Of a DNA stretch of 64,000 nucleotides, positions 46,316 to 53,601 are shown piece after piece. Below the pieces are notes generated by a model, which worked only from the letters and a program-made list of their open reading frames with translations, searched no databases and was not told the DNA's origin. The position numbers were made by a program, and so were the translations under genes. Origin of the DNA: Hymenobacter puniceus (GTDB taxonomy: Bacteria; Bacteroidota; Bacteroidia; Cytophagales; Hymenobacteraceae). Location: positions 248,001-312,000 of the forward strand of contig NZ_JACSCX010000003.1 of NCBI RefSeq assembly GCF_014333525.1, given 5' to 3'. Within the stretch, counting starts at the first letter, position 1, and every line of letters starts with the position of its first letter.

Positions 46316-46413
46316 TTGTTTTTATATGGTCAGGACTTGGCACCGTTTCGGAAGGTCCGCTGGTTGCCGGCGTTTCGTCGAGCCTGTCTCTCCGCGCCTC
46401 TGTATAAAAACAA
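46316..46413 (-). promoter_or_regulatory. SAM-I riboswitch aptamer
   Basis: On the minus strand, stem P1 is TTGTTTTTATA paired exactly with TATAAAAACAA. P2 is GGCG/CGCC around the kink-turn and GACGAAAC. The conserved core CCGGCAACC is followed by P3 (CGGA/TCCG) and then GGTGCCAAGTCC. Order and conserved bases match the SAM-I (S-box) class: AGAG, GGAGAGAC, GACGAAAC, GGCAACC, GGTGCCAA, TCC. It should repress the sulfur operon when SAM is abundant. Confidence 0.9.
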
Positions 46414-51436: not shown

Positions 51437-52147
51437 GTGACTGATTCTTCTGCTACTGCCCCGCGGCCTGATTTGCTGCGTGTTCCCTACGACGACTACC
51501 GCGCTCTGCCCGCCATTGCTAATTCCGACCTCTCGCGCCTGCGCGACGCCCTGAACGGCCGGTCGCCACGGCCTGCTTCGGCCAGCGGCGCGCTGGGTTT
51601 GGGAACTGCTTTCCATACGGCTCTGCTGGAGCCCGACCTCTATGAGCCTGGCTTGCCCGGCATCAACGATACGCTGGTGTGGTGGATGGTGGAGGGCGTT
51701 CAGCTGAATCCTCAGGTCAGCAAATGGCTGGAAACCGGTATTGCCGAGCCCAGCTGCATCTTCACAGAGCCCGTTACGGGTACGCTGTGTAAGCTCCGCG
51801 CCGACCTTGTGGTAGATCAGCCAGGCGAGCCATATACGGTCATCGACTTCAAAACCACACTTGCCCACGACCACCAGCATTTTGTGGCGCAGTGCAGCGG
51901 CTATGACTACGACCGGCAGGCCGCCTTCTACGCCGATGCCCTCCGCGCCGACCGGTTTGTGCTGGTAGGCGTGCAGAAAGTGGAGCCTTTCAATCTGTTC
52001 GTGTATGAGGTGCCGCGCTTTATGCTCTCGGAGGGCCGTGCCAAGTATCTGCGGCTGCTGAAGCTGCTACAGCCCGAGTCGGCGGTGCCAGCCTCAGTAG
52101 CCGGAGCCGTGCGCGAAGTGCGCGACACACTTCTAGGCCATGAATAG
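51437..52147 (+). CDS. PD-(D/E)XK nuclease-like protein (ExoVIII/RecE-like)
   Basis: 236 residues from GTG 51437. The N-terminal LRVPYDDYRALPAIANSDL and GLGTAFHTALLEP (His60) correspond to the RecE/ExoVIII C-terminal nuclease. The catalytic set is Asp123 (KLRADLV), Asp137 and Lys139 (VIDFKTT), with YDYDRQAAFY (158-165) as the final conserved helix. In phages this enzyme resects double-stranded DNA for RecT. No recT, integrase or other phage gene is near, and codon use is like the host's, so this is a lone chromosomal copy of unknown job. Confidence 0.85.
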   Translation: MTDSSATAPRPDLLRVPYDDYRALPAIANSDLSRLRDALNGRSPRPASASGALGLGTAFHTALLEPDLYEPGLPGINDTLVWWMVEGVQLNPQVSKWLETGIAEPSCIFTEPVTGTLCKLRADLVVDQPGEPYTVIDFKTTLAHDHQHFVAQCSGYDYDRQAAFYADALRADRFVLVGVQKVEPFNLFVYEVPRFMLSEGRAKYLRLLKLLQPESAVPASVAGAVREVRDTLLGHE

Positions 52148-52289
52148 GGCTATTAATAGAAAATTAAGAAGGTAGATAGTATTATAAGAAGTAATTGCGC
52201 TGAAAATGAAAATTAATTATCAATAATGTAGGAGTTGATAATATTGATTTTTATACTTGCATACATCGAACGAAAAACGACACCCCGTC
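52148..52289 (+). other. AT-rich promoter region of asnA leader
   Basis: Strongly AT-rich. TATACTTG at 52252-52259 is one base off TAnnTTTG, about 30 bases ahead of the leader ATG. A TTG at 52235 gives a short 14-base spacer, so the -33 element is uncertain. Confidence 0.4.
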
Positions 52290-52379
52290 ATGCGCTTCTT
52301 CTGCAATAATCTTCCTAATAATAACTCGAATAATAATCAGATTCGAGACTGGAAGGCTATTGCTCCATTAGAGATATAA
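52290..52379 (+). CDS. Asn-rich leader peptide of asnA
   Basis: 29 codons from ATG 52290 to TAA 52377. Eight residues are Asn (codons 6, 7, 10, 11, 12, 14, 15 and 16), seven encoded by AAT although the neighbouring genes prefer AAC. The peptide begins MRFFCNNLPNNNSNNNQ. It resembles no known functional protein. It overlaps the 1 and 2 strands of the attenuator described next, and the asparagine synthetase gene follows. The obvious role is as a sensor of charged tRNA-Asn by ribosome stalling. Function inferred from architecture. Confidence 0.8.
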   Translation: MRFFCNNLPNNNSNNNQIRDWKAIAPLEI

Positions 52380-52433
52380 AAATCAGCAGTTGATTTTTTA
52401 AGCAGCCTTCCCTCACTCGGAAGGCTTTTTTTT
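52311..52433 (+). promoter_or_regulatory. Transcription attenuator controlling asnA
   Basis: Four complementary strands are visible. Strand 1 (CTTCC 52311-52315 and CTCGAAT 52325-52331, within the Asn codons) pairs with strand 2 (ATTCGAG 52341-52347 and GGAAG 52351-52355). Strand 2 GGAAGGCT (52351-52358) also pairs exactly with strand 3 AGCCTTCC (52404-52411), forming an antiterminator. Strand 3 pairs exactly with strand 4 GGAAGGCT (52419-52426) to form the terminator, followed by eight T. Ribosome stalling on the Asn codons would mask strand 1 and favour read-through. Confidence 0.8.
52404..52433 (+). terminator. Attenuator terminator upstream of asnA
   Basis: An 8-bp perfect stem AGCCTTCC/GGAAGGCT, 7-base loop and eight T. 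It lies 160 bases before the asnA start codon, so full termination here would silence asnA. Confidence 0.9.
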
Positions 52434-52593
52434 GTGCCTGCCGTACCGATTGCCTGATGTAGCTGATCAAGCTGGTGTCATAATTTTCTGGCACGCTTAA
52501 TTTCTGAAAATTAAAAACTCCCGTCGGGGAGGCTGAAAACTGCGTGCCTTTTTTAAATAAAAAACACTCACACCATTTAAATAAAAACACGTC

Positions 52594-53601
52594 ATGACTG
52601 CCCACGAAATGCTCAAAACCGAAGAAGCCATCAGCTTTGTAAAAGACGCCTTTGCCAAGGAATTGTCGTCGCAGCTGCACCTGGTGAAAGTATCCTCGCC
52701 AATTGCCGTGCTCGATGGCACTGGCATCAACGACGACCTGAACGGGATTGAGCGGGCGGTTGGCTTTCCCATCAAGGCGCTGGACGAGCGCCGCGCCGTA
52801 GTGGTGCACTCGCTGGCCAAATGGAAACGGGTGCGCCTGCAGGAACTTGGCATTGAGGCCGGCCGTGGCCTGCTCACCGACATGCGCGCCCTGCGCCCCG
52901 ACGAGGATTACTCGCCTATCCATTCCATCTATGTAGATCAGTGGGACTGGGAAAAGCACATCAGCGCGGAGCAGCGCACACCGGAATTTCTGCACGCCAC
53001 CGTGGAGCGCATCTACGAGGCGCTACGCACCACCGAAGCCCGCGTGGCCGAAACGTACCCGGAGATTTCGCCGGTGCTGCCAGCCAAAATCACCTTTGTG
53101 CACGCCGAAGACCTGCTGCGCCAGTATCCGACCCTGACGCCCAAGGAGCGTGAGCATGAGGTGGTGAAGCAGTACGGCGCAGTGTTTCTGGTGGGCATCG
53201 GCGGCGAGCTAAGCCACGGGGAGGCCCACGACGGCCGCGCCCCCGACTACGACGACTGGAGCACCGAAACCGCCGACGGCTACCGCGGCCTCAACGGCGA
53301 TATTCTGCTCTGGCATCCCGTTCTGCAAACATCGTTCGAGGTATCGTCGATGGGTATTCGGGTGGATAAGCACGCGCTGGTGCGCCAGCTGGCGTTGCGC
53401 GGCTGTGAAGACCGGCAGGAACTGTCGTTCCATGCGCGGCTGCTGAAAGATGAGCTACCACAGAGCATTGGCGGCGGCATTGGGCAGAGCCGTGTGTGCA
53501 TGTTTATGCTGCGCAAAGGCCACATCGGCGAAGTGCAGGTGAGCATCTGGCCGGAGGCTGTGCGCACCGAACTGGCGGGGGCTGGGATAGGGCTGCTATA
53601 A
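52594..53601 (+). CDS. asnA: Aspartate-ammonia ligase (asparagine synthetase A)
   Basis: 335 residues, close to the 330 of the E. coli enzyme. Class II aminoacyl-tRNA-synthetase-like fold with motifs KVSSPIAVLDGTGINDDLNGIERAV, AVVVHSLAKWKR, IHSIYVDQWDWE and the C-terminal LPQSIGGGIGQSRVCMFMLRKGHIGEVQ. It makes asparagine from aspartate, ammonia and ATP. Single gene behind an Asn-codon attenuator, closed by the terminator at 53706. Confidence 0.96.
   Translation: MTAHEMLKTEEAISFVKDAFAKELSSQLHLVKVSSPIAVLDGTGINDDLNGIERAVGFPIKALDERRAVVVHSLAKWKRVRLQELGIEAGRGLLTDMRALRPDEDYSPIHSIYVDQWDWEKHISAEQRTPEFLHATVERIYEALRTTEARVAETYPEISPVLPAKITFVHAEDLLRQYPTLTPKEREHEVVKQYGAVFLVGIGGELSHGEAHDGRAPDYDDWSTETADGYRGLNGDILLWHPVLQTSFEVSSMGIRVDKHALVRQLALRGCEDRQELSFHARLLKDELPQSIGGGIGQSRVCMFMLRKGHIGEVQVSIWPEAVRTELAGAGIGLL

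Follow-up and report, generated by a model that had tools for sequence, protein, structure and literature searches.

A probable leader-peptide attenuator with asparagine codons upstream of asnA in Hymenobacter and other Bacteroidota

Upstream of asnA in Hymenobacter puniceus lies what is very probably a transcription attenuator of the leader-peptide (ribosome-mediated) type, which responds to the charging of tRNA-Asn and regulates asnA. The region combines a short open reading frame (ORF) with clustered codons for one amino acid, mutually exclusive antiterminator (2:3) and terminator (3:4) pairings, a protector stem (1:2) overlapping these codons, and a pathway gene downstream. The parts, their conservation, the compensatory changes in the stems, the codon-level conservation of Asn, and the spacing between the Asn codons and strand 2 are all seen directly in the sequences. 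The mechanism class is classical, and the interpretation is supported on comparative grounds: the original prediction, an Asn-codon ribosomal attenuator in front of asnA, proves right in kind, with the position of strand 1 corrected. We discuss the element in the window (the whole 64,000-nucleotide stretch that was analyzed), its distribution among relatives, and three settings that extend it, namely tandem leaders, a leader before a gat operon, and copies kept without asnA.

The features are given below in window positions; Asn counts refer to an alignment of 70 leaders, 59 from Hymenobacteraceae and 11 from distant loci.

52252-52259, plus strand: possible -7 promoter box TATACTTG, with five of the six fixed bases of the Bacteroidota consensus
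52290-52379, plus strand: leader ORF MRFFCNNLPNNNSNNNQIRDWKAIAPLEI of 29 codons, read from the sequence, from ATG at 52290 to TAA at 52377-52379
52303-52315, plus strand: strand 1 of protector stem 1:2, from folds, with 52351-52363 as its partner
52305-52310, plus strand: first Asn cluster, AAT AAT; Asn at the two columns in 65/70 and 46/70
52317-52325, plus strand: second Asn cluster, AAT AAT AAC; Asn in 59, 55, and 65 of 70
52325-52347, plus strand: inner hairpin within the ORF, over the third Asn cluster; in the fold, 52325-52331 pairs with 52341-52347
52329-52337, plus strand: third Asn cluster, AAT AAT AAT; Asn in 63/65, 69/70, and 63/70
52351-52358, plus strand: strand 2, the 5' side of the antiterminator, GGAAGGCT, in the 2:3 helix; 52358-52363 also pairs with strand 1
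52379-52397, plus strand: spacer hairpin AAAATCA...TGATTTT, located between strand 2 and strand 3 and most evident in some of the Hymenobacteraceae
52404-52411, plus strand: strand 3, AGCCTTCC, common to antiterminator and terminator, from sequence and alignment
52419-52426, plus strand: strand 4, the 3' side of the terminator, GGAAGGCT, in the 3:4 helix and the terminator scan
52427-52433, plus strand: U tract of the intrinsic terminator, 7 T, from the sequence
52594-53601, plus strand: asnA, aspartate--ammonia ligase, 335 aa, by TIGR00669 and PF03590

The proposed mechanism has two states. When Asn-tRNA(Asn) is plentiful, or the leader is untranslated, strands 1 and 2 would pair and strand 3 would be free; free strand 3 would then form the 3:4 terminator and end transcription at about 52433. 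Under a shortage of Asn-tRNA(Asn), the translating ribosome would stall on the Asn clusters, covering strand 1 with its leading edge short of strand 2; the uncovered strand 2 would pair with strand 3, no terminator would form, and RNA polymerase would continue into asnA. The model thus supposes that the ORF is translated, that the hairpin functions as a terminator, that 1:2 and 2:3 form in the order of transcription, and that the signal is a low level of Asn-tRNA(Asn).

Most of what had been predicted for the window is present as claimed. Asn occupies 8 of the 29 leader codons in three clusters (codons 6-7, 10-12, and 14-16), 7 of them AAT and 1 AAC. The claim that the neighbors prefer AAC also holds, with 0 AAT and 3 AAC in asnA, whose product is Asn-poor (3 of 335 residues, all AAC), and 10/20 and 3/12 in two other genes of the window. 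The two predicted complementarities are exact, 52351-52358 with 52404-52411 as antiterminator and 52404-52411 with 52419-52426 as terminator, and the gene downstream is asnA (TIGR00669, 419.6 bits, cut-off 292.8, 9e-126; PF03590, 1.4e-99). Two details changed. Eight T had been placed after strand 4; the T run spans 52426-52433, so that 7 T follow, with the final stem base as the eighth. Strand 1 had been placed at 52311-52331; folding puts it at 52303-52315, where 52303-52308 pairs with 52351-52356 and 52310-52315 with 52358-52363, and 52325-52331 is part of the separate inner hairpin. This hairpin would form the top of the 1:2 domain and is possibly a pause hairpin.

The element stands out within the window. 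Among the ATG ORFs of 8-60 codons on the two strands of the 64 kb, the leader ORF alone reaches 6 Asn in 12 residues, and the fold of 52290-52440 has a z of -3.48 against shuffles. The 3:4 hairpin, which ends 160 nt upstream of the asnA start codon, is among the 5 sites found by a terminator scan in which 1.9 were expected. The -7 promoter consensus of Bacteroidota is TAnnTTTG, and a transcription start a few bases 3' of the candidate box at 52252-52259 is possible; a scan for -7 boxes in the window chose a different place with an equal score, and a loose scan across the 70 loci gave 5-of-6 matches in 59, at scattered distances. A search of the bacterium's own genome with the pattern AAYAAYAAYNNNAAYAAY gave, beyond the leader, two overlapping matches in the start of a protein gene, which we take to encode a KAP-type NTPase, and these were rejected as a further Asn leader. 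At Rfam gathering thresholds, the whole window yields a tRNA and a SAM riboswitch only, both elsewhere, with no leader family and no T-box; a known Rfam or NCBIfam name for the leader was likewise sought, and no leader or T-box family matched. The SAM riboswitch is an aptamer of RF00162 at 46319-46410 on the minus strand (69.6 bits).

The leader accompanies asnA throughout the genus. AsnA occurs in 67 of the 200 family genomes, and the DNA upstream of every one was screened with a filter for Asn leaders (ATG ORF, 8-60 codons, at least 4 Asn in 12 residues). An Asn ORF lies roughly 290-330 nt upstream of asnA in 58 of the 67; these are 50 genomes of the genus, in which the predicted element is thus present in 50 of 50 asnA-bearing genomes, and 8 of genus g5. 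The leader is absent from the remaining 9 family asnA genomes (3 of g3 and 6 of g4), where AsnA identity is 57-61%, versus 74-100% in the 58 leader-bearing genomes. A public comparison set, the best 80 of 300 genome loci, has the Asn ORF in 41/41 loci of Hymenobacter or Solirubrum (L031-L071); many of these duplicate loci of the first set, and the 169 loci overall reduce to 125 distinct upstream regions. The remaining 39 public loci comprise 11 with two Asn leader ORFs, one with a single leader (L094), one with a weaker leader (L089), one with a doubtful leader (L086), and 25 without a leader, including all 16 titled Sphingobacterium.

Across the phylum, a sample of 395 genomes has asnA in 21, at 22 places; 16 of the 19 places outside the genus fail the Asn-ORF filter, and L126, L121, and L129 pass it. 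L121 is the same locus as L089, and L126 carries NANLNSNLNLNANNNAMTAGG before a terminator. The more distant asnA genes of L126 and L121/L089 each have an Asn-rich, leader-like ORF and a terminator before them, possibly as independent cases. Other Asn genes were searched at 23 loci, 18 of them with asnB (12) or asnS (6) above the cut-off and 5 with sub-cut-off asnB matches, and no Asn-rich short ORF was found there.

A covariance model of attenuator 1, termed R1, extends the survey beyond asnA. R1 hits 69 of 200 family genomes: the 58 leader-bearing asnA genomes, 5 without asnA, and 6 with weak hits only. Seven weak hits in the family (40-47 bits) are terminators by eye and have no ORF with at least 4 Asn. 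Within the genus, R1 marks 55 of 120 genomes, 50 with asnA and 5 without. The asnA-less carriers (G044, G065, G151, G161, and G189; loci L220-L224) score 113-133 bits and hold asnB and asnS above cut-offs elsewhere in all 5 genomes. By eye, the upstream neighbor in these loci resembles the window gene at 51437-52147. A hairpin-rich element begins 56-71 nt past the attenuator, which is kept complete where asnA once stood. The final hairpin of the element is homologous to the former terminator of asnA, and its homologue sits 30-40 nt after asnA in 11 other genomes. Mean pairwise identity among the five loci is 85% in the attenuator and 78% in the element, with 61% upstream, 44% between the two, and 30% downstream. 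One helix of the element has two-sided changes in three pairs; its structure is unproven, because the sequences number five, two of them nearly identical, and the covariation term is +1.08. Two identities were considered for these loci and rejected: the element as a new gene, there being no shared ORF by eye, and a known Rfam leader for the attenuator copies, where Phe_leader (23.7 bits, gathering score 55) and the others all fell below gathering.

These asnA-less copies fit either a selected RNA output or slow decay following the loss of asnA. An asparagine-starvation-induced small RNA, that is, a leader-peptide attenuator whose output is RNA instead of protein, is a speculative reading of them to which we give a modest chance. 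They also bear on the strongest rival explanation of the element as a whole, in which the short attenuated transcript supplies a trans-acting RNA or peptide with its own targets, besides or in place of cis control. Such a product of an attenuated leader has a reported precedent in peTrpL of Sinorhizobium (PMC7298713), and the five genomes of the genus that keep both the attenuator and the following element, each conserved above its surroundings, speak for it. Still, cis control suffices wherever asnA is present, and the asnA-less loci may be relics of recent loss; we consider a trans-acting role unlikely.

The RNA stems are conserved across the 70 leaders, and in close relatives, where the original prediction called for a check, the ORF and stems 1:2, 2:3, and 3:4 are kept with compensatory changes. 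The terminator 3:4 is paired in 99.3% of cells with two-sided changes in 4/8 pairs, and the antiterminator 2:3 in 98.4% with two-sided changes in 3/8. The protector 1:2 is paired in 96.3% of cells at 2 pairs and 78.8% at 10 pairs, with two-sided changes in 6/12; three of its pairs are broken in 20, 38, and 39 of 70 sequences. The inner hairpin is paired in 87.5% of cells (4 pairs) and 64.5% (3 pairs), with two-sided changes in 4/7, and the spacer hairpin in 77.7%, with two-sided changes in 4/7 pairs. As a control, sliding the partners by 1-3 columns left 33-58% paired. When the letters on the 3' side were shuffled, none of 500 shuffles reached any of five measures for the first structure (1:2, inner hairpin, and 3:4); for the second structure (2:3 and spacer hairpin), the count of two-sided pairs was reached in 11/500 and that of further pair types in 58/500. 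An alignment-free test, from which L016, L059, and L081 were left out, compared the pairing of the post-Asn region with the 5' arm of the terminator against dinucleotide shuffles, and the natural sequence paired better at p<=0.05 in 65/67 leaders and at p<=0.01 in 48/67.

The same helices weigh on the suggestion that the element acts in translational control, or as a constitutive terminator that reads no amino-acid signal. An effect on mRNA stability or translation is possible in itself; against it, no helix is better paired than the terminator, which carries a U run and ends 160 nt before the start codon of asnA, and strand 2 is conserved as the exact competitor of that terminator. We therefore judge this suggestion very unlikely and retain transcription attenuation.

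Folding in the order of transcription agrees with the attenuation model. When the RNA was made to just past strand 2 and no ribosome was present, strand 2 was held upstream in 70/70; when the mask of a ribosome reached 11 nt beyond the first, middle, or last Asn codon, strand 2 paired with the newly made strand 3 in 70/70. In ribosome-masked folds before strand 3 exists, strand 2 paired upstream in 10, 6, and 0 of 70 for the first, middle, and last Asn. Equilibrium folds back the switching weakly and came out mostly negative as a test of it: with strand 4 included, the antiterminator won in 5/70 with no ribosome, 12/70 with a ribosome at the first Asn, 12/70 at the last Asn, and 0/70 at the stop codon. 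In the window's own equilibrium fold, stalls at codons 10-15 produce the switch (P 0.8-0.97), and those at codons 6-7 or 16 fail to. With neither ribosome nor strand 4, 52300-52416 folds best as 2:3 and the inner hairpin rather than the outer 1:2, and the model therefore requires that 1:2 form first and persist, and that 2:3 form before strand 4 is made. The classical attenuation model has the same need.

In 11 distant loci (L072, L073, L074, L078, L079, L080, L081, L084, L087, L088, and L101), two Asn leader ORFs and two terminators stand in series before asnA. The order is attenuator 1, a second short Asn ORF that often ends in Pro codons, a second terminator with a U run, and asnA; one of the two Asn leader ORFs of L072 starts with GTG. 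The best strand-2 candidate of the second ORF lies 11-17 nt past its last Asn codon in 10/11 loci, and none is visible in the second attenuator of L078. The second antiterminator reaches p<=0.05 singly in 5/11 loci, and Fisher's combination of all 11 gives a p of 4e-6. On a tree of 71 AsnA proteins, a branch (100/93) separates the 14 rows of Hymenobacteraceae from the rest, and a group of 57 (99/97) contains every attenuator-bearing row, alongside 29 rows without an attenuator; L126 belongs to this group on a very long branch that makes its placement unsure. The tandem state requires 5 changes on the tree, 3 of them forced, and it may be ancestral.

The window locus itself has one Asn ORF only and so is not tandem. 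A second attenuator between 52433 and asnA was sought in Hymenobacteraceae and rejected, since no Asn ORF passed the filter (ATG, 8-60 codons, at least 4 Asn in 12 residues). A hairpin ACTCCCGTCGGGGAG followed by GTGCCTTTTTT occurs at 52500-52555 of the window, between the attenuator and asnA, and recurs in many Hymenobacteraceae with no Asn ORF. In this family, the stretch from 52433 to asnA repeatedly shows a hairpin with GTGCCTTTT after it, and the consensus fold of the stretch is weak, at -2.3 kcal/mol. The 52500-52555 hairpin could be the relic of a second attenuator.

An Asn leader of like design also precedes genes of a different route. R1 was run on 13 distant-locus genomes; 11 matched, as expected, because their leaders are in the model. 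In a Seonamhaeicola genome, R1 found a second place (L214, 56.6 bits), with leader MRNNNNNNNSNNPII, strand 2 GGGAAGGTTATTG, and the same terminator core, ahead of a small ORF and gatA. This gatA was found at E<=1e-60 in 15 of 100 Flavobacteriaceae genomes (L272-L286). Ten of the 15 gat operons have a leader like M.NNNNNNNFNNPN., each with 13-14 nt separating the last Asn codon from strand 2; in the other five, no Asn leader was seen within 560 nt. Every one of the 15 genomes has, adjoining gatA, an open frame 1115-1121 residues long that gives a synthetase-like hit. The sole operon fully read, that of L287 (630-5641), encodes a GatC-like protein (PF02686, 20.8 bits, below the cut-off of 23), GatA (TIGR00132, 432 bits, below the cut-off of 481; PF01425, above its own), and a GatB-AspRS fusion of 1112 residues. 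Both GatB (TIGR00133) and bacterial-type AspRS (TIGR00459) are above cut-off in the fusion, and the model of non-discriminating AspRS (TIGR00458) gives 193 versus 368. AsnRS is above its cut-off in all 25 genomes searched. In other bacteria, ones that also retain AsnRS, the making of Asn on tRNA-Asn by GatCAB and a non-discriminating AspRS is described, and rescue of an Asn-auxotrophic E. coli laboratory strain has been tried with another AspRS/GatCAB pair (PMC4206432). The fusion would likewise act on tRNA-Asn, in tRNA-dependent Asn synthesis.

As a separate observation, one genome has a Phe/Tyr-rich leader MNTTTKYFFFNYFYFKQ with a like terminator (L218, around 1500-1640; R1, 49.7 bits). The gene 3' of it is, by eye, prephenate dehydratase-like.

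Codons, frames, and spacing tell apart the parts of the leader. Asn positions hold Asn across the 70 leaders while AAT and AAC interchange, and strand 2 is read in two frames, in 56/70 and 14/70 leaders, to give WKAIA-like or GRLLV-like tails; the Asn codons therefore appear to be selected as codons and strand 2 as RNA. In L081, a stop codon lies upstream of strand 2. Within the Asn part, gap lengths are divisible by 3 in 135/135 runs, and from that part to the end of strand 2 they are not in 15/20; runs were counted per sequence, and the independent gap events are far fewer than these counts, because they are largely a few shared insertions. This codon-level conservation, with its frame-keeping gaps, is an indirect sign that the leader ORF may be translated. 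Between 5 and 11 Asn codons (median 8) precede strand 2. A median of 16 nt separates the last Asn codon from strand 2 (range 4-19, sd 2.35), as against an sd of 13.9 from strand 2 to the stop; this spacing is not uniquely tight, because the distance between ATG and strand 2 has an sd of 2.9. At 51 loci, AAT makes up 297/377 Asn codons of the leaders versus 1/184 of the asnA genes, which use AAC in 183/184, the reverse of the leaders.

The variability of the leaders tells against an arrest peptide that senses free asparagine instead of tRNA charging, as TnaC does with tryptophan. A conserved short peptide does precede asnA. Nevertheless, its sequence is variable outside the Asn runs, its C-terminal part is read in two frames, and the runs lie in differing peptide contexts (ORF1, ORF2, and the gat leaders); moreover, stalling at high Asn would presumably give the opposite sign for a biosynthetic gene, and we regard an arrest peptide as highly improbable. 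Equally remote is an RNA switch of another kind (T-box, riboswitch, or an antiterminator bound by protein) that uses the stems while the ORF is incidental, for although stems 1:2, 2:3, and 3:4 are conserved as RNA, the window's only matches at gathering score are the tRNA and SAM riboswitch elsewhere, and the Asn codons are kept through synonymous exchange with frame-keeping gaps.

Like the attenuators of trp, his, leu, thr, and phe, the asnA leader joins an ORF with a codon run, 1:2, 2:3, and 3:4 stems, an intrinsic terminator, and a biosynthetic gene. Unlike them, it would read asparagine, belongs to Bacteroidota, matches no Rfam leader at gathering score, has an inner hairpin over the last Asn cluster, and has its strand 2 in two frames among species. 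T-boxes of asparagine genes in Firmicutes sense the charging of tRNA-Asn and control termination, and they bind the tRNA directly, with no ORF. They would share the signal and the control of termination with the asnA leader, whose window is without a T-box hit at gathering score.

Leader peptides were known from Proteobacteria and Actinobacteria, and a 2010 survey added Firmicutes (PMC2965389); its text has no word beginning with Bacteroid. Two reports concern the same phylum as the asnA leader: leader-peptide attenuation has been proposed for amino-acid biosynthesis operons in Flavobacterium psychrophilum (PMC9723704), and leader-like small ORFs in long 5' UTRs have been described in Bacteroides thetaiotaomicron (PMC7366714). 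In Rhodobacterales, uORFC-8-2 before cysS is a conserved upstream ORF with codons for one amino acid and an attenuation-like structure (PMC8632094); it shares comparative discovery with the asnA leader and differs in its amino acid (cysteine), its lineage (Alphaproteobacteria), and its gene (a tRNA synthetase). Neither asnA nor asparagine occurs in the main texts of these four papers (PMC9723704, PMC7366714, PMC8632094, and PMC2965389). Tandem attenuators are described for Salmonella mgtCBR, where mgtM and mgtP answer two signals, ATP and proline (PMC3641672). As in mgtCBR, the 11 distant asnA loci carry two attenuated short ORFs per leader, where the window locus has one; both tandem asnA ORFs carry Asn runs, and one signal would therefore be read twice, unlike in mgtCBR. 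Among the matches listed from open-access literature, searched by title or start of abstract with subscription papers mostly outside its scope, no asparagine leader-peptide attenuator was found. As far as searched, the use of asparagine, the arrangement in series, the tRNA-dependent Asn operon, and the copies without a gene are new.

With this element, asparagine would join the amino acids read by leader-peptide attenuation, and Bacteroidota would gain a case backed by broad comparison. Two attenuators in series that read one amino acid raise the question of a steeper response versus a lower leak, and a collection of 70 sequences in which strand 2 is read in either of two frames makes it easier to tell RNA function from peptide function. 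The same design stands before both the AsnA and the GatCAB/AspRS routes and therefore points to one signal, Asn-tRNA(Asn); in this manner, a small Asn regulon becomes testable.
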